NCBI GenBank assembly: GCA_900316265.1
Contig: ONCH01000003.1
Span: 1-64,000, forward strand
Length of the DNA: 64,000 nt
DNA from: an uncultured Prevotellaceae bacterium
GTDB lineage: Bacteria > Bacteroidota > Bacteroidia > Bacteroidales > Bacteroidaceae
Reading direction: 5' to 3'
Below, piece by piece: positions 56,327-62,858 of this stretch (position 1 is its first letter; every line of letters starts with the position of its first letter). The notes beneath the pieces are model-generated. The model had not been told where the DNA came from and made no database searches. It saw only the letters and a list, made by a program, of their open reading frames with translations. A program made the translations under genes and the position numbers.

Positions 56327-58501
56327 TTATGGCAACTCCTTCACAAAATACTCACTTCCGGAGTTGCGCCTGCGACTCCGGAATTTGTTTTCCGGCCGGT
56401 TCAGGAAGTTACCAATTTTCTCGAAGGTGCCGGCTTCCTCCTTATAGGCACCCTTGAAGGCTTGTTTCAACTGCTTCGAGATGGCCTTCAGCGATAGCCA
56501 TTTACCCTCGCTCTCGTTTTCGGGCCTCTGGTAGAGCGACAGCAACATCTCGCCCAGTCCGTTCAGTCGTTGGTATTGCAGGTTATGGTGCATCAGCGCC
56601 TGCTCCTCATCCTTCGTCAACCAGTAGCGCTCGCCACGCGCCACCTCAGCTACCAGCTGCGCATAGAGCTGCGGGTAGTCGATGGGCGTCTGGAAGTCGA
56701 TGTTACCCTCAGCCACCACACAGATGAAACGGCGCGAACCGCTGGGGTCAACGAGGGGCGTCTGGTCGTTGGTGGTGCCAATGAACGACGCATAGCGTCG
56801 ATGACTACTATAAGCCTTGCCATACGGCGGACGGTATTTCAGGTCTGCCGTCGATACGAGGTATTTCAGTACAATCTGCTGGCGCTGGGTAATCTTGTCG
56901 AACTCGTCGAGGTTGATAAGGGCAAACGACGTCAGGCCGAGGTTCAGATCGGACTCGTTCTTGAAATTGATGCGGTCGTTATAGTATTCACGCTGGTCGC
57001 GAGGCAACAGGATGCGACAGAAGCTCGACTTGCCACAGCCTTGGCGACCTATTAATAAAGGTACGAGGGCGTTACCCGTCAGCTGTCCCTTACCTTGCCA
57101 CATGGCCACCATCGAGCGCATCCACAGGTGGAACAGATGCGTCCACTCCTCATAGTCGGTCTTCACACGCTGGGCCAGGGACGTCACACGGTCCACTCCG
57201 TCCCACTTGGGCAGGTGTTCCAGCCAGTCGTTGATGGGGTCATACAGTTCGATGTCGTCGGAGTTGACAAAGCGCCGGATGTCCTTGTCCCAACAACGGA
57301 TGCCCTGCTCCAAGGCACGCATCGTCATGGAGTTGCGAGCCTCCTCGGTGAGGTCCTGGAACGAGAAGCCCAGTCCTCTCCGCTGGCGGTATTCTGCTAC
57401 ACCACGCATCACGTTCTTCCGCAGTTCGTAGTGCTCACGCAGGAAAATGTCAATCTTCATCGTCAGCAGGGTCTCTGGTGCGATGTTCTTCAGGCGTTGC
57501 TTGTCGCCCTTCCTACGCTGATATTTCTTCTCATTAGCCTGACGATAGGCGTTCTCGAACGTCAGACGCACCATCAACGGGTCCTGACGGAAGGGGTTGC
57601 GGTTGATGGTCATCCTCAGGGCGATACCCTGTGGGATGCCCGTCTCCTGACAACGGTCAGCCAGTCGGATGGTCAGTAGGTGGGTGTACTCCGCATCGTC
57701 GCTGACGTCCTGTTCCTCGACGGTCGCCATCTCGTCGTAGGCCTTCATGAGGTTGAACTCATAAATCTTATGTAACGTCAGGTAACGGTCCAGACCAGGC
57801 GCCGTCTCCTTGGGTTCAATAGTAGTGCTGACAGGCTTCACGATAGTCGTCGTATCGACATAGAACGCCACAGCCAGCGGATTATAGAACGCCTCAGGGT
57901 CGTAGCTCATATAGCACACGCGATCCATCCTCGGCTCCAACTTCTCGATGGTCACACCCAGTTGCGCGTTATACGCCATCCGTGCCATCTCATACAGCCT
58001 CTCATGAAACACCCGTTCCTCCTCTTCCTTCTGACTTCTTCCCTCTTCCATCTTCCCAGACTCCCCTCCCGTCGGGAGGGGTAGGGGGTAGGTTCCACAG
58101 CACACTATCTTCACACTCCGCCCGCTGGCACCCACAAAGGCCAACAGCGTCTGGGGCATCAGGGCGGCACCATTACGGATGGCGACGGCCTCCTCATAGT
58201 TCTGCAGATGGTTCACCTCCAACAACACCAGCTGGGTGTAGCCCTTGCTGATGCGCTGGTGGTTGCGGTTCTCCAACTGTTGGGCAAAGCACAGCATCGG
58301 CAACTTCTTGACATACTCCTCACCGCCAACGAGTGTGCCGTCCTCGTTGCGCTCCTTATCTATAATAGGGTAGTAGGTGCGTAGCAGATCGACCTCCTTC
58401 TGGTAATCTCCCTTACGCATCATATCCACCACCGTCTCTATCTCCAGCGTCCGCAGCGCTTCGCCACCCCGCTGTCTCTTAATCATCGTAATCTCCTTCA
58501 T
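56327..58501 (-). CDS. BT4734/VirE-type P-loop protein
   Basis: A 724-residue protein. The N-terminal part (about 40-300) fits the BT4734/BF3469 family and the central part (about 430-640) the VirE/VapE P-loop domain: Walker A GRQGCGKSS (485-493), LINLDEFDKIT as Walker B, TTNDQTPLVDPSGSRRFICV as sensor/arginine segment. The C-terminus resembles DUF3874. VirE-type ATPases are primase-helicase relatives of mobile islands; a biochemical role is not shown. Such genes often neighbour capsule loci in Bacteroides. Family A repeat inserted in frame gives TYPLPLPTGGESG at about 137-149. A cluster of repeats lies directly upstream. Confidence 0.85.
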   Translation of the reverse strand: MKEITMIKRQRGGEALRTLEIETVVDMMRKGDYQKEVDLLRTYYPIIDKERNEDGTLVGGEEYVKKLPMLCFAQQLENRNHQRISKGYTQLVLLEVNHLQNYEEAVAIRNGAALMPQTLLAFVGASGRSVKIVCCGTYPLPLPTGGESGKMEEGRSQKEEEERVFHERLYEMARMAYNAQLGVTIEKLEPRMDRVCYMSYDPEAFYNPLAVAFYVDTTTIVKPVSTTIEPKETAPGLDRYLTLHKIYEFNLMKAYDEMATVEEQDVSDDAEYTHLLTIRLADRCQETGIPQGIALRMTINRNPFRQDPLMVRLTFENAYRQANEKKYQRRKGDKQRLKNIAPETLLTMKIDIFLREHYELRKNVMRGVAEYRQRRGLGFSFQDLTEEARNSMTMRALEQGIRCWDKDIRRFVNSDDIELYDPINDWLEHLPKWDGVDRVTSLAQRVKTDYEEWTHLFHLWMRSMVAMWQGKGQLTGNALVPLLIGRQGCGKSSFCRILLPRDQREYYNDRINFKNESDLNLGLTSFALINLDEFDKITQRQQIVLKYLVSTADLKYRPPYGKAYSSHRRYASFIGTTNDQTPLVDPSGSRRFICVVAEGNIDFQTPIDYPQLYAQLVAEVARGERYWLTKDEEQALMHHNLQYQRLNGLGEMLLSLYQRPENESEGKWLSLKAISKQLKQAFKGAYKEEAGTFEKIGNFLNRPENKFRSRRRNSGSEYFVKELP
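58060..58093 (+). repeat. Palindromic GC-rich repeat, family A, in frame in the VirE-type gene
   Basis: A 34-bp copy (ACTCCCCTCCCGTCGGGAGG, then GGTAGGGGGTAGGT) with a perfect CCCTCCCG/CGGGAGGG core. Same orientation as the copies at 47051 and 48307. Confidence 0.8.
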
Positions 58502-58569: not shown

Positions 58570-58770
58570 CAAAAATTCGCCAATATCTGCAACATTTCCC
58601 GTGAAAATTTTCCGAGAAAAATTTGCAAAAAGTATCTCAAACCATCACTCATTTTCTGAAATGCCGATATATAAAGGATGTATCGCAGTGTATGTTTAAA
58701 AATTATGACAATACTAACCTACACTAATTCTCTATTTTTGACCTAAATTTGACAAAAAATGCCATTTTTC

Positions 58771-58885
58771 AAACACTTTGTTTGTCCTTATTATATCAAT
58801 CTCCAAACAGAGTGTTTTATTCTTCAAACACTCTGTTTTAGGGTGCAAACACTCTGTTTGACATCATCTATATATTTTCAAACAC
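58771..58885. repeat. Iteron-like cluster of AAACA-N3-TGTTT
   Basis: Near-identical 13-mers at 58771-58783 (AAACACTTTGTTT), 58805-58817 (inverted, AAACAGAGTGTTT), 58826-58838 and 58847-58859 (both AAACACTCTGTTT), plus a half copy AAACAC at 58880. Start-to-start spacings are 34, 21, 21 and 33 bp, close to two or three DNA turns. Each unit is itself palindromic in its outer five bases, as expected for a dimer-binding site. Confidence 0.8.
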
Positions 58886-59115: not shown

Positions 59116-59556
59116 ATGAAACAAAAAGAAGCCATTTTTACCGAAAAAGCCAAACATTACTTTGTCTGTTTTGCCGATCAGTGTCCGCTGCACGAGACTT
59201 GTTTGCGCTGGGAGGTTGGACAATATGTGGATGCTGACGAGGTCGCCATCATGTCCATGAACCCCAGGAACCGCAAGATTGCCCAGGGCGAGTGTGACAG
59301 CTATCGTGAGGATCAGGTCGTCAGAATGCCCCTTGGTATGCGTGAACACTTCTATTATGACATGCCTCATCATACGGAGCTCTCCATCAAAGGTGCACTC
59401 ATCAACCACTATGGCCGTTACAAGTATTACCAATACCATAGCGCCAAGTGCCCCATACCCCCCGACGTCCTGCAGGTTATCCAGACCGTCTGTCAGCGCT
59501 ACGGTTGGACGCAGCCCCTCCAATTCGACTCCGAAGTCGAGGATTATCTGTGGTAA
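59116..59556 (+). CDS. Conserved Bacteroidales protein, probably DUF6078
   Basis: A 146-residue soluble protein beginning MKQKEAIFTEKAKHYFVCFA. Three Cys lie in CFADQCPLHETC with a fourth in QGECDSY and a fifth in SAKCPIPP, a spacing that could hold a metal. A helical C-terminal part (QVIQTVCQRYGWTQPLQFDS) follows. I believe it matches DUF6078, common in Prevotella and Bacteroides near capsule-type regulators, but cannot confirm this. Single gene with its own promoter, between the VirE-type gene (divergent) and the second UpxY gene. Confidence 0.7.
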   Translation: MKQKEAIFTEKAKHYFVCFADQCPLHETCLRWEVGQYVDADEVAIMSMNPRNRKIAQGECDSYREDQVVRMPLGMREHFYYDMPHHTELSIKGALINHYGRYKYYQYHSAKCPIPPDVLQVIQTVCQRYGWTQPLQFDSEVEDYLW

Positions 59557-59633
59557 TCCACCTTTTTTATAAATAATTGACGTTTTATCCCAAAATTATT
59601 CATTCTTTGCCTCGTTATATGAAATTTTCTTTG

Positions 59634-59641
59634 TACCTTTG
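59634..59641 (+). promoter_or_regulatory. Promoter -7 element TACCTTTG for the second UpxY gene
   Basis: Full match, ending nine bases before the ATG at 59651. With normal spacing the mRNA would have a leader of only a few bases. Confidence 0.65.
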
Positions 59642-59650
59642 CACGGAATT

Positions 59651-60280
59651 ATGGACGAAGCGAAGATTTCTCCAAGTGGTTCGGTAGGTGCTGAGGTGCA
59701 CAAACCGAGTGGCTCTGCCGTACCCGACCGCAAATGGTTTGTGGCACTGCTGACCCATCAGAAATACACCGACACCTGTGTCGACTACCTCAGCAAGAAC
59801 CCCGCCACAGCCACGTGGGAAACCTACATCCCCCGCAAGAAAGTGCTCCACGTCTACCCCAACCGCACCAAGCGGATGGTCGACCGCTACTTCATCCCCC
59901 GCATGCTCTTCATCAGCGGTATGGACGAGAATGTAGCCTACGAGCACGTCCGTCACAATCCCTACATTGAGCTCTTCCTGCCAGAGCGAGCTATGCCGCG
60001 CACCACTGCCGGCCGTCTGAAACTCGCCCAGGTTCCCGACCGCGACATCCAGCGACTCCGTCAGGCTATCGCCGGCATCGTCAGCGAGGACGACATCGAA
60101 CTCACCAAGGAATCCCTCACCTCCGACTCCGTCATCGAAGTCCGCGACGGTGAACTCGCCGGCCTCTACGGCAACTACGTCCAAGACGCCGACAACCACT
60201 TCCTTTGCTTCGCCCTCGGCCGCCTCGGCAACGTCAAGGTTAAAGTCGACATCAAGCGCTGCACCCTCCACAAGCAGTAA
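59651..60280 (+). CDS. Second UpxY-type NusG paralog
   Basis: A 209-residue NusG-like protein: NGN domain (KWFVALLTHQKYTDTCVDYL, VDRYFIPRMLFISGM) and a C-terminal KOW-like part (DSVIEVRDGELAGLYGNYVQ, then LGNVKVKVDIKRC). It is more divergent than the first copy and has an N-terminal extension rich in Ser/Gly. UpxY factors normally lead a polysaccharide operon. Here the next gene is a GxxExxY protein behind a 218-bp repeat, so either its target operon was displaced or it acts in trans. Codon use is G+C-rich compared with the genes that follow. Confidence 0.83.
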   Translation: MDEAKISPSGSVGAEVHKPSGSAVPDRKWFVALLTHQKYTDTCVDYLSKNPATATWETYIPRKKVLHVYPNRTKRMVDRYFIPRMLFISGMDENVAYEHVRHNPYIELFLPERAMPRTTAGRLKLAQVPDRDIQRLRQAIAGIVSEDDIELTKESLTSDSVIEVRDGELAGLYGNYVQDADNHFLCFALGRLGNVKVKVDIKRCTLHKQ

Positions 60281-60290
60281 CCTCCTTTAC

Positions 60291-60508
60291 ATCCCGAACA
60301 CTCCCGAAAAAACGAAACTTCCCCAAAATACGATGAGTACATTTTCCAGATGATAAGCTGATTTTGTTTGGAAGCAATTCTGAAAGTTCACTTTCAAGAT
60401 GCTTCAAAACAATCTCAACCTTTGCTAAATGCAAAGCAATCTTTCCAACAAGATTGTCATCTGAAAAAGATTTTCGTCCATTCCGTCCTTTTCGGTTGCA
60501 TTCGGAAT
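60291..60508. repeat. 218-bp direct repeat, copy 1 (structured core)
   Basis: The same 218 bp, with no gaps, recur at 60904-61121 (offset 613). I count about 20 mismatches in total but only two in the central 60346-60468. The core can fold: closing stem CAGATGATAA (60347-60356) with TTGTCATCTG (60454-60463, one G-T pair); arm 1 GAAGCA/TGCTTC with inner GAAAG/CTTTC (60371-60405); arm 2 CTTTGC/GCAAAG (60420-60436); arm 3 CAATCTT/AAGATTG (60437-60456, partly competing with the closing stem). It ends 12 bp before the GxxExxY start codon. Minus-strand translation of the core is also conserved, so a short peptide is an alternative. Confidence 0.9.
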
Positions 60509-60519
60509 AAAATTAAAAT

Positions 60520-60903
60520 ATGATAGTATATAAAGAGGAGTCATCCAAGATTATCGGAGCAATATTCGAGGTACACAAGCGCCTCGGCGTGGGACTCCTT
60601 GAAAAAGTCTATCAAGAGGCTTTGGCCATTGAACTTAAACACCGCAACATTCCGTTCGAAAGAGAAAAGCGCTTTGACGTATATTACCGGGACGAAAAAC
60701 TGGATGCACAGTACATCGCAGACTTTGTCTGTTACGATAAAATCATTGTAGAACTGAAAGCTGTGAGCGAACTTACCGACACTCATAAGGCTCAAGTACG
60801 TAATTATCTGACGATAACCAACTATGAGCTCGGTATCTTGTGCAACTTTAACGAACTCTATATGGAGCCCGTAAGAGTACTCAACTCGAACCTGCATAGA
60901 TAG
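60520..60903 (+). CDS. GxxExxY protein (PD-(D/E)XK nuclease-like)
   Basis: A 127-residue protein with the family motif G25-L-L-E28-K-V-Y31 and a probable nuclease core: Asp68 (IADF) and Glu78-x-Lys80 (IVELKAV), then QVRNYLTITN. GxxExxY proteins are small, dispersed, often multi-copy in Bacteroidetes, and have no established function; the PD-(D/E)XK resemblance is structural inference. The gene is bracketed by two 218-bp direct repeats, so gene plus one repeat makes a 613-bp unit that looks like a cassette. Translation start ATG at 60520. Confidence 0.85.
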   Translation: MIVYKEESSKIIGAIFEVHKRLGVGLLEKVYQEALAIELKHRNIPFEREKRFDVYYRDEKLDAQYIADFVCYDKIIVELKAVSELTDTHKAQVRNYLTITNYELGILCNFNELYMEPVRVLNSNLHR

Positions 60904-61121
60904 ATTCCGAACACTCCCGAAAATAGGAAAACACCCCAAAACACAATGAATACAATTTCCAGATGATAAGTTGATTTTGTTTGGAAGCAATTCTGAAAGC
61001 TCACTTTCAAGATGCTTCAAAACAATCTCAACCTTTGCTAAATGCAAAGCAATCTTTCCAACAAGATTGTCATCTGAAAATGATTTTCGTCTATTTCGTC
61101 TCTTTCGGATACTTTCGGAAT
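60904..61121. repeat. 218-bp direct repeat, copy 2 (structured core)
   Basis: Second copy of the element at 60291-60508. All stems of the copy 1 fold are preserved; of the two core differences one lies in the arm 1 loop and one outside the stems. It begins at the stop codon of the GxxExxY gene and ends 15 bp before the next start codon, so each copy lies directly upstream of a gene. Confidence 0.9.
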
Positions 61122-61136
61122 TAAAAAGTAGTATAA

Positions 61137-61562
61137 ATGACTCAACTCAATGATAAAGATCACGCTGCACAGATGGCAGATATGGCGTCGTTCGACGAAG
61201 AGATGCCCTCAATAGGCATTTTCTGGTACGACCCTAATGATCACAGTCTGTTTGGCGTTGGCAAGAAGGAACTGACGCCTCAGATGGTGGAAGAGGCCGC
61301 CGAGAAGGGCATACATTATATGGATTATTCAACATCTTCCTTCTTACATCAGCCATCTGACATCAAGCGGAGTGCTTGCGGCCGTGTAGCCTGGAACGTT
61401 AATAAGTTTATTGTGTTGGTAGGCAAGTGGGCAGAGCCAATTCAAGAGCAGCTCACCGAATTGCTGGAACAGGAGTTCTCTCTGCCTTATTTCGAGTTCG
61501 TCTATGACCATCACTGGGACCTTGGTCACGGCTGGAGCGGCGACATGCCTGGCACACGTTAG
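61137..61562 (+). CDS. Hypothetical protein
   Basis: A 141-residue acidic soluble protein. The N-terminal part (EEMPSIGIFWYDPNDHSLFG, VGKKELTPQMVEEAAEKGIH) and an end rich in aromatic and His residues (FEFVYDHHWDLGHGWSGDMP) look like a conserved domain I cannot name. A segment near residues 65-76 (TSSFLHQPSD) is encoded by a CATCTTCC/CATCAGCCATC repeat and may be an insertion. No signal peptide. Its upstream region is the second 218-bp repeat. Followed by two very small frames. Confidence 0.65.
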   Translation: MTQLNDKDHAAQMADMASFDEEMPSIGIFWYDPNDHSLFGVGKKELTPQMVEEAAEKGIHYMDYSTSSFLHQPSDIKRSACGRVAWNVNKFIVLVGKWAEPIQEQLTELLEQEFSLPYFEFVYDHHWDLGHGWSGDMPGTR

Positions 61563-61609
61563 TCCTGTCTTCCACCATCTTCGGAATTATAACAATAGAC
61601 ATAAATACA

Positions 61610-61750
61610 ATGACGAAAGAAGAAGCAATTCGCCGTTTCAAGGCAGCTAAGCAAACTAAGAAGGATGCTGTTGCAGCTCTTGAACAGAAAATGAAACAAG
61701 CCTACGAGGAGCGTACTGGTTTGAAAGCCAATTATGTGGTAACGTTATGA
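61610..61750 (+). CDS. Small hypothetical protein (46 aa)
   Basis: A short frame starting MTKEEAIRRFKAAKQTKKDA and ending in YVVTL. It is Lys/Ala/Glu-rich and helical, with normal-looking codons, and its stop overlaps the next ATG (TTATGA), as in a toxin-antitoxin or paired-gene arrangement. No family recognised. Translation is plausible but unproven. Confidence 0.5.
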   Translation: MTKEEAIRRFKAAKQTKKDAVAALEQKMKQAYEERTGLKANYVVTL

Positions 61751-61896
61751 ACCAACTCTCTATTCAGGCAATCAATGAATCATCCTCTTATGAGGTGAGC
61801 GAGGTAAGTCCGGGCTGCTATCAGTTCTTTACAGACCTCAGTGCCATAATCGCAGAGTTCACTGAGACAATCTCTTTGCTCAGTTCGAAACCCTAA
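61747..61896 (+). pseudogene. Probable 5' remnant of a small gene
   Basis: A 49-codon frame beginning MNQLSIQAINESSSYEVSEV and reaching YQFFTDLS, then a less convincing end. A different frame continues with coding-like sequence (QFETLKNLNDYLLALAVAAH) to about 61970, where a CATCTTCC repeat begins. The two parts look like one gene broken by an internal deletion or frameshift. The first part resembles the start of a small Bacteroidetes family, but I cannot name it with confidence. It overlaps the preceding small gene by 4 nt. Confidence 0.45.
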
Positions 61897-61982
61897 AGAA
61901 TCTCAATGACTACCTGCTGGCACTGGCAGTAGCTGCTCATGAGAATTATAAGAAGTCAAAGATTCAAAAGAAAGGAAAACAA

Positions 61983-62014
61983 ACATCTTCCTTCTTCCAT
62001 CTAACATCTTTCGT
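61983..62014 (+). repeat. CATCTTCC-type short repeat
   Basis: The 14-mer ACATCTTCCTTCTT followed by CATC occurs here and, in frame, at 61332-61350. It marks the end of the broken small gene. It may belong to the simple-sequence family that also gives the inserts in the genes at 42071 and 61345. Confidence 0.45.
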
Positions 62015-62044
62015 TCGATACTGCCAGTCAGAACAAATAATAAT

Positions 62045-62344
62045 ATGGATAAAATGTTGAAAGCATCATTGGATTGGATAAATTCTATTGCATTTCCAAA
62101 TGCAGGCTTTGACCATCCGAATGATGAAAACAAGGTGAAGTGCGCTGCTCGTGCATTGGATAAGATGGGAGTGGTGATTAATAATCAGGAAGTTATTGAT
62201 TATTGTCGTACTCTAGGTATGCCACAGGAAGCTATTGATAAAATAGTGGATTGGTATGGCAGACCGAAAAGTCTGCGTTTGAAAGACGCAATGAAGTTCT
62301 CTACTAAAGACCTGAAAGATATTTGGTCGAGGAAAGATAGCTAG
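62045..62344 (+). CDS. Hypothetical protein (99 aa)
   Basis: A small soluble, largely helical protein (MDKMLKASLDWINSIAFPNA, then DENKVKCAARALDKMGVVIN and FSTKDLKDIWSRKDS). No motif I know. It precedes the three-gene STAS/GHKL operon by 31 bases and is in the same orientation, so it may be co-transcribed; base composition already shifts toward A+T here. Confidence 0.6.
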   Translation: MDKMLKASLDWINSIAFPNAGFDHPNDENKVKCAARALDKMGVVINNQEVIDYCRTLGMPQEAIDKIVDWYGRPKSLRLKDAMKFSTKDLKDIWSRKDS

Positions 62345-62375
62345 AATGTGAAACATAAAGGAAAACCTTTAGACT

Positions 62376-62858
62376 ATGGACATAAACATGAATTTTGTTA
62401 GTAATGTACTAAAGAGTTTTACGGAGCAAACACAAAATTTGGAGGGACAGCTAAATGCATTGCATAAGTTTTTATGGCTTCTCCTAATAGTTCTTTTGGC
62501 AAATATTGCAGTGACAATCATAAAGTATTATCTTGATAGACAGCATGCAAGGCAGGCAGCTCTTCTACAGAGAAGGAAGTTGATTTTTGAACAGTCGATT
62601 AATATTGAAAAAGAGATATTCAAAAAAGTGGATGCTCTTTCTGATTATACCAGAGAAGAATGCCCACAGCTAATTCAATCAGTCAATTCTATTCGAGATG
62701 AACTCAATGAAAGTAGATTGTTTTTCGATGACAAAGTATATGAATCTATTGATAGTATTTTGAATTATTTTACTGAAATAGCTGGGGATTTCCGTAAAAA
62801 GAATATTAGTAAAGAGATAAAGTTAAAAAAGAAATATATAGAAGCATTCCATGGCTAG
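62376..62858 (+). CDS. Membrane-anchored coiled-coil protein of the STAS/GHKL operon
   Basis: A 160-residue protein with one membrane helix (about 31-49, KFLWLLLIVLLANIAVTIIK) after a short N-terminal helix, and a cytoplasmic helical tail (RRKLIFEQSINIEKEIFKKV, then YESIDSILNYFTEIAG) likely to form a coiled coil. No catalytic motif. The last eight bases overlap the start of the STAS-GHKL gene. It could anchor or sense for that ATPase, much as small membrane partners do in signalling operons. Inferred from context only. A second Met at residue 5 is possible. Confidence 0.7.
   Translation: MDINMNFVSNVLKSFTEQTQNLEGQLNALHKFLWLLLIVLLANIAVTIIKYYLDRQHARQAALLQRRKLIFEQSINIEKEIFKKVDALSDYTREECPQLIQSVNSIRDELNESRLFFDDKVYESIDSILNYFTEIAGDFRKKNISKEIKLKKKYIEAFHG

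Follow-up and report, generated by a model that had tools for sequence, protein, structure and literature searches.

A GxxExxY gene between two four-way-junction repeats in an uncultured Prevotellaceae bacterium: a candidate composite of iteron-bounded miniature mobile DNA

A GxxExxY gene of an uncultured Prevotellaceae bacterium and the two direct repeats on its sides probably form, as we hold with somewhat more than even confidence, a composite of iteron-bounded miniature mobile DNA that is inserted between two host genes in the order iterons-core-iterons, GxxExxY, iterons-core-iterons, with GxxExxY as the likely nuclease and the core as a gene-less passenger. This reading draws on the inverted iteron arrays that bound GxxExxY genes, on the link of these genes to the core, on the covariation within the core and on insertion sites that are occupied in some genomes and empty in others. 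The window referred to below is the whole stretch of DNA analysed, 64,000 nt of contig ONCH01000003.1 (assembly GCA_900316265.1). The kind of miniature mobile DNA is possibly undescribed: in the open-licence literature neither a description of the element nor a function of GxxExxY was found, a description elsewhere being possible, and the passage on GxxExxY in PMC8934634 gives no function.

The two repeats (Table 1) are 225 nt long each, stand at an offset of 613 and align ungapped with 90% identity, and their cores differ at two of 117 positions (identity 0.98). An earlier, sequence-only reading of this DNA had described two ungapped repeats at this offset with two differences in the core and a GxxExxY gene between them, all of which was borne out, the gene by its TIGR04256 and PF13366 matches and the repeats with the bounds given here; its drawing of the core as a closing stem with three hairpin arms was likewise right, and this shape is conserved in relatives. 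It should be added that the repeats end in short iterated inverted units and that a second GxxExxY gene of the same genome is likewise bracketed by cores, both features going beyond that reading. Copies a and b fold far beyond chance (z of -7.01 and -7.22, none of 200 shuffles being as good). The inverted match between left and right ends is weak in copy a (51 of 200 shuffles equally good), and in copy b 38 of 200 shuffles were as good. With their cores being mutually nearest, the two copies look like a recent local duplication.

Table 1. Coordinates of the composite and its neighbours in the window
Feature	Position	Strand	Basis or content
Repeat copy a	60288..60512	+	left iterons, four-way-junction core, right iterons
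Left iteron array, copy a, ATCCCGAACACTCCCGAAAAAACGAAA	60291..60317	+	sequence, by eye
Four-way-junction core, copy a	60347..60463	+	covariance model (CM), 113.1 bits (copy itself in model); covariation
Right iteron array, copy a, TTTTCGTCC ATTCCGTCC TTTTCGG..ATTCGGAAT	60471..60508	+	sequence; pattern scan of own genome
GxxExxY protein, 127 aa, PD-(D/E)XK nuclease superfamily	60520..60903	+	profile matches; invariant residues
Repeat copy b	60901..61125	+	left iterons, core, right iterons
Left iteron array, copy b, ATTCCGAACACTCCCGAAAATAGGAAA	60904..60930	+	sequence; MFE fold pairs array with right end
Four-way-junction core, copy b	60960..61076	+	CM 116.3 bits (copy itself in model)
Right iteron array, copy b, TTTTCGTCT ATTTCGTCT CTTTCGGAT ACTTTCGGAAT	61084..61122	+	sequence; pattern scan of own genome
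Upstream gene, antiterminator weakly resembling UpxY	59639..60280	+	NF033644, 42.7 bits, below cut-off of 100; host gene, outside element
Downstream neighbour ORF-X, family unassigned (no profile match)	61137..61562	+	host gene, outside element

The protein encoded between the repeats is a member of the GxxExxY family, with 145.4 bits to TIGR04256 (cut-off 35) and 144.2 bits to PF13366, PDDEXK_3 (cut-off 22); to this family the present analysis adds the iteron ends and the core. Residues E28, D68, E78 and K80 are invariant across 66 GxxExxY sequences, and we take them to be catalytic, as expected of a PD-(D/E)XK nuclease. When the family profile was searched against the PDB, T7 endonuclease I sequences were the only ones returned at E up to 10 (two, with E of 0.98 and 1.0, not significant), with 56 of 120 profile positions aligned and the D and E-x-K columns lining up. 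T7 endonuclease I is a Holliday-junction resolvase of the PD-(D/E)XK type, and the resemblance of GxxExxY to it is a lead, not a result. Furthermore, the Cas4 model of PADLOC matches the GxxExxY protein at 1.5e-4. Genes of the family were present in 50 of 99 sampled genomes of the phylum, taken to be Bacteroidota, the source genome included.

The core fold of 117 nt is made up of a closing stem from which three arms branch, a long one and two short ones. Its consensus joins the helices by four links, of which three are free of unpaired bases and the fourth contains about three, and the core is therefore a nearly closed four-way junction. A first covariance model was built from 10 copies and was used in later scans to find more. 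Covariation was assessed in the 28 matches of at least 61 bits out of 50, the others being weaker copies or reverse-strand echoes. Standard pairs made up 94.3% of 1255 pair cells, as compared with 77.1% when the 3' letters were shuffled, and changes on both sides of a pair were seen in 206 cells, as compared with 54.9 +/- 5.8 in shuffles (none of 500 as high), although the copies are related and their alignment, having been fitted to the structure, is biased towards it. Two-sided changes occurred in 36 of 45 pairs, all five helices showed compensatory changes, and the signal was lost when pair partners were slid by 1-3 columns; in a model-free MAFFT alignment of 10 copies two-sided changes were present in 20 of 44 pairs. 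The core is a genuine conserved structure, and the covariation analysis that the sequence-only reading had proposed did find compensatory changes in its stems.

No Rfam family matched positions 59500-62500 at E up to 1, and searches of the element against plasmids and phages gave no match. Several candidate copies were set aside: 19 stretches of viral contigs that matched the pattern of the third and fourth arms were attributed to chance (none of them is recovered by the core model with an E threshold of 0.1), weak DNA matches in two genomes outside the genus (G082, G066) were short, and a core-model stretch in locus L010 resembles coding sequence. At L012 the core model gave no match.

The core model, built without reference to GxxExxY, was run on 200 genomes of the genus and returned 22 distinct cores in 11 genomes, 1 to 4 in each, with opposite-strand echoes merged by hand and at most 18 candidates scored per genome, which may hide diverged cores. 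A GxxExxY open frame was located within 1 kb of 15 of these 22 cores (four in G000, three each in G138 and G050, two each in G178 and G001, one in G212), and seven cores had none in the fetched flank (G238, G111, G114, G037, where the contig ends, and three in G219). By our estimate, given about 1-6 such genes per 3 Mb, well under one such proximity would be expected by chance. The sequence-only reading had suggested counting how many copies adjoin a GxxExxY gene and had named copies showing neither such a link nor compensatory changes as one outcome that would speak against it; the 15 of 22 cores and the covariation contradict that outcome. In 198 genomes of the order the core was found in the source genome only; this search used a stricter filter and scored up to 18 candidates per genome, and diverged copies may thereby be missed.

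The source genome, whose assembly is 87% complete, yielded two GxxExxY genes, and the one outside the window, at C91:103683, is bracketed by two diverged cores at C91:103501 and C91:104085. The first of these cores (L007:5502) shares 93% identity with core L049:3206 of Prevotella communis (NZ_CP091794.1), where the adjoining genes differ, and 74% with its partner 470 nt away; on sequence identity these two are not sister copies. Seven loci have a GxxExxY gene flanked by a core on either side (both of the source genome, G001, G138, G178, L067 and L117), and G050 becomes the eighth if a core 721 nt away is accepted. Among 80 GxxExxY loci (L044-L123) the core model matched at ten (L046, L047, L048, L049, L067, L068, L069, L082, L107 and L117), and since the other 70 have no core match, the nuclease is not dependent on the core. 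Of the cores within 1 kb, 19 have the same orientation as GxxExxY and five the opposite one (p 0.007); this set of 33 cores was mostly fetched via GxxExxY, so that linkage cannot be judged from its distances, and the count of 15 in 22 comprises scan cores only. Some cores lie downstream of GxxExxY or have no such gene. The proposal that repeat and gene make up one 613-bp cassette was consequently not upheld, core and gene being separable inserts, and in this separability of gene and structured unit the element is unlike an integron attC cassette.

GxxExxY genes of relatives are flanked by short units in inverted arrays, such as ACAACGAATTTCACGAATTTCACGAATT. The left flank matched the reverse complement of the right flank better than in all 60 dinucleotide shuffles at 77 of 99 GxxExxY loci, as compared with 1 of 25 control ORFs; allowing up to three of the 60 shuffles to be as good, the counts were 84 of 99 and 4 of 25. 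These 99 loci, which include the window locus (L001) and the second locus of its own genome (L003), were selected from 148 HMM hits including duplicates as the unique ones with E up to 1e-15 and 400 nt on either side, those with shorter flanks being dropped, and the control ORFs were taken from the same loci under limits of length, distance and flank. In a phylum-wide sample 18 of 27 GxxExxY loci passed the same test (27 of 29, loci at contig ends being dropped). The arrays have a period of 9 bp: at lag 9 self-match was above ten shuffles for 57 of the 99 left flanks and 56 of the right ones (lag 10, 22 left and 28 right; remaining lags tested, 5 to 18). The unit itself varies by locus, with CGAAA, ACGGAT, ACAGAG, ATCTAAA and others. 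When flanks were compared across loci, the matched pair was the best of its row in 24 of 99 cases and stood above the 95th percentile of mismatched pairs in 58 of 99 and above the 99th in 16; this comparison is blunt because unrelated loci share iteron words, and we therefore relied on the shuffle test with control ORFs.

The ends of core units resemble those of GxxExxY genes. Among 31 cores (L011 and L146 left out), 15 reached the 5% level in the shuffle test, which both window copies do not, and in others the resemblance is visible by eye. Moreover, the cores sort by iteron class, with 13 of 28 nearest neighbours sharing a class as compared with a mean of 3.6 in label shuffles, the classes being assigned by eye. 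Tandem arrays of bare units beside GxxExxY were seen by eye at L045, L050, L051 and L052.

Empty and filled states of the same junction were compared upstream of a gene which, from its sequence, we take to be wecB-like. A 600-nt stretch of this gene was matched in 22 of 249 genomes of the genus, giving 23 loci with upstream DNA, and 13 loci were measured; the remaining loci have other upstream genes, and the core model gave no match at the 23 wecB loci of the genus search. In one gene pair the gap is 5 nt at L250, which is empty, 475 nt at L044, with GxxExxY between iterons and no core, and 657 nt at L046, where left iterons, core, right iterons, GxxExxY and again right iterons follow each other. 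Between L250 and L044 or L046, respectively, the tails of the upstream proteins are identical at 111 of 137 and 124 of 148 positions, and the wecB starts at 139 of 150 and 137 of 150. In a second gene pair the gap amounts to -14 nt (L255, L257 and L258), 5 nt (L252), 9 nt (L261), 27 nt (L264) and 51 nt (L247), and filled gaps are of 121 nt at L262 (iterons only) and 773 nt at L053/L263 (GxxExxY; one assembly from two sources). Empty and differently filled junctions thus indicate that the gene unit, the core unit and the bare iteron pair were each added separately to gaps where genes are closely packed or overlap; no target duplication is readable at base level because the genomes compared are too diverged. 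The suggestion of a mobile element gains support from these junction states, from the 93% identical core beside different genes across species and from the link between core and GxxExxY.

It is improbable, in our judgement, that there is no current movement and that old intergenic inserts were merely inherited via the exchange of polysaccharide operons, with the window pair as a plain local duplication. Such a history would fit the window cores, which at 98% identity are each other's nearest, and several inspected loci that look like clusters of polysaccharide genes (as presumed from sequence, with no systematic count); however, the same junctions are empty and filled in different states, the 93% identical core stands beside different genes in another species, and the second GxxExxY gene is not bracketed by sister cores. 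Hardly more probable is that another enzyme, e.g. a REP-associated Y1 (HUH) transposase, mobilises the core units, with common landing sites behind the link to GxxExxY. HUH enzymes work on hairpins, the source genome does have one Y1 transposase over the cut-off (C46:107456), and seven of 22 cores have no GxxExxY nearby. Against this, no Y1 transposase lies beside the cores of that genome, its one match over and one below the cut-off being on contigs C46 and C67 and its four cores on C91, and iteron ends are carried by the GxxExxY genes themselves.

Whether the core pairs in DNA or in RNA was approached through its wobble pairs, as RNA stems should keep G.U far more often than A.C. Over all pairs, G.T and A.C cells in the core stood at 31:15 (p 0.026); eleven of the G.T cells sit in one poorly defined, ambiguous pair, and without it the counts were 20:15 (p 0.50), or 12:13 (p 1.0) in 25 rows, i.e. 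the 28 cores minus three apparently out of register. Selecting pairs for a share of at least 85% Watson-Crick cells disfavours G.T by design and was not used as evidence, and a tRNA yardstick gave four G.U and no A.C of 61 pairs, from three tRNAs, which are too few, with structure lines two characters short. Under DNA parameters the forward and reverse strands of the core fold about equally well. As there is no clear excess of G.T over A.C once the ambiguous pair is removed, we read the pairing as DNA-level; this is suggestive, not decisive, of pairing that is maintained in DNA, as a cruciform or in single strand. Hairpin template-switch repair could be a non-selective source of wobble-free two-sided changes.

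Given the orientation bias, a role of the core in RNA is possible. In its specific form, with the core as a structured RNA (leader, processing or stability element) in the operon mRNA that mobile ends spread and RNA function retains, we regard it as unlikely, though less so than the two alternatives above. The strong covariation, the orientation shared with GxxExxY by 19 of the 24 cores that lie within 1 kb, the position of cores in operon gaps and the G.T excess with the ambiguous pair included would all agree with it, as would the core upstream of ORF-X here, in P. communis (L049) and, about 480 nt upstream, in L228. It is countered by the wobble counts without the ambiguous pair, by the equal folding of the reverse strand, by the five cores in opposite orientation, by the Rfam result and by the lack of a core match at 27 of 28 loci of ORF-X homologues in other genomes. 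The related proposal of the sequence-only reading, a leader RNA or control element duplicated before two genes, finds no support on much the same grounds: a core was matched at one of these 28 loci (L228) and at L049 outside the set, cores occur in both orientations, and without the ambiguous pair no clear G.U preference is seen. ORF-X was accordingly rejected as a regular partner of the element.

In the composite of miniature mobile DNA that we prefer, the iteron arms or the core would be extruded as hairpins or as a cruciform, and the putative PD-(D/E)XK nuclease GxxExxY, whose active site looks intact, would recognise and cut the extruded arms; cutting would then drive excision or copying, followed by insertion into gaps between genes. 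The gene-less core unit would be a non-autonomous passenger moved in trans and recognised by that nuclease activity or one related to it, comparable to REPINs and RAYTs. It should be added that several observations weigh against this explanation, namely the iteron ends of core units that reach the 5% level in 15 of 31 cases and in neither window copy, the matched flanks that are row-best in 24 of 99 loci, the seven of 22 cores with no GxxExxY in the fetched flank, the 70 of 80 GxxExxY loci that have no core match and the 19:5 orientation bias, which plain mobile DNA does not demand.

Among known systems, the REPIN/RAYT pair would be the closest analogue in logic. REPINs are presented in the abstract of PMC3116915 as short intergenic inverted-repeat units with predicted hairpins that are linked to one enzyme family, the RAYTs. 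Units of the window type are similarly intergenic inverted repeats tied to one enzyme family; in contrast, their partner is a PD-(D/E)XK protein and not an HUH transposase, and they have 9-bp iteron-array ends, a conserved four-way-junction insert and 1 to 4 cores per genome (11 genomes of the genus with a match). Because no Y1 transposase is found beside the cores of the source genome, the element was not filed as a member of this group. MITEs share with the core unit that it is gene-less, and terminal inverted repeats like theirs may be present, the shuffle test reaching the 5% level in 15 of 31 core units and others showing such ends by eye; the MITE trait of ends shared with an autonomous unit would correspond to the GxxExxY units, which carry the same kind of ends, with GxxExxY as the putative transposing enzyme. 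BrickBuilt, a gene-less MITE of Porphyromonas gingivalis that is bounded by terminal inverted repeats and contains short repeats inside, has, according to passages of PMC4596501, a 23-nt minisatellite and ends like those of known IS, whereas the body here is a conserved junction.

Intervening sequences (IVS) of 23S rRNA, which a passage of PMC4990558 describes as a small ORF between inverted repeats and calls a selfish element of unclear origin, lie inside rRNA and are cut out by RNase III; the units analysed here are between protein genes and have another protein and other iterons. The window unit is not such an IVS, as its protein is GxxExxY and not S23, it occupies a gap between protein genes, and Rfam gave no match there. 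Genes for four-helix-bundle proteins of the 23S IVS family (TIGR02436) in the genus were nevertheless found between iterated inverted repeats, beyond all shuffles, at 21 of 25 loci (out of 30, L183-L212, the rest being dropped for contig ends). Their iteron units differ from those of GxxExxY, and the core model gave no match in the 30 loci. In the source genome itself, such genes are located at C91:69843, C91:71717, C91:83841, C52:5732 and C81:10727.

A wider and distinctly more tentative proposal, though one we find somewhat less doubtful than the structured RNA, is that the units belong to a widespread, transposase-free mobile DNA. Inverted 9-bp iteron arrays would bound the units, GxxExxY would be a junction-resolving PD-(D/E)XK nuclease that moves them via extruded hairpins, the gene-less form with its conserved four-way junction would be a Holliday-junction mimic and hence a natural substrate of the nuclease, and the four-helix-bundle (23S IVS) proteins would represent a parallel class with other iterons. 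If GxxExxY is the enzyme of a miniature mobile DNA, the family gains a function, the iterated repeats of ACGGAT, ACAGAG and ACGAAT type around its genes are explained, and a four-way junction kept by two-sided changes supplies a substrate ready for testing. Such a function might further be relevant to the spread of 23S rRNA intervening sequences, the origin of which is described as unclear in a passage of PMC4990558.

ORF-X, the downstream neighbour of 141 aa, has no Pfam or NCBIfam match; it was matched in 29 of 249 genomes of the genus (E up to 1e-10), and a second copy lies just beyond the window at C91:64871-65335. At L228 a different structured-looking insert between ACAGAT/ATCTGTG iterons was seen by eye within about 350 nt upstream of the ORF-X homologue, suggesting that further gene-less core types exist, and a core of the known kind is present further upstream (L228:2442-2552). 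The ORF-X homologue upstream of GxxExxY at L050 is, by eye, apparently shortened by an iteron unit. Elsewhere in the window, a protein with a BT4734-like or VapE-like domain is encoded at 56327-58501 on the minus strand, and iterated inverted CAAACACTCTGTTT units at 58764-58860, which precede a DUF6078 gene on its upstream side, possibly represent one more short palindromic repeat element.
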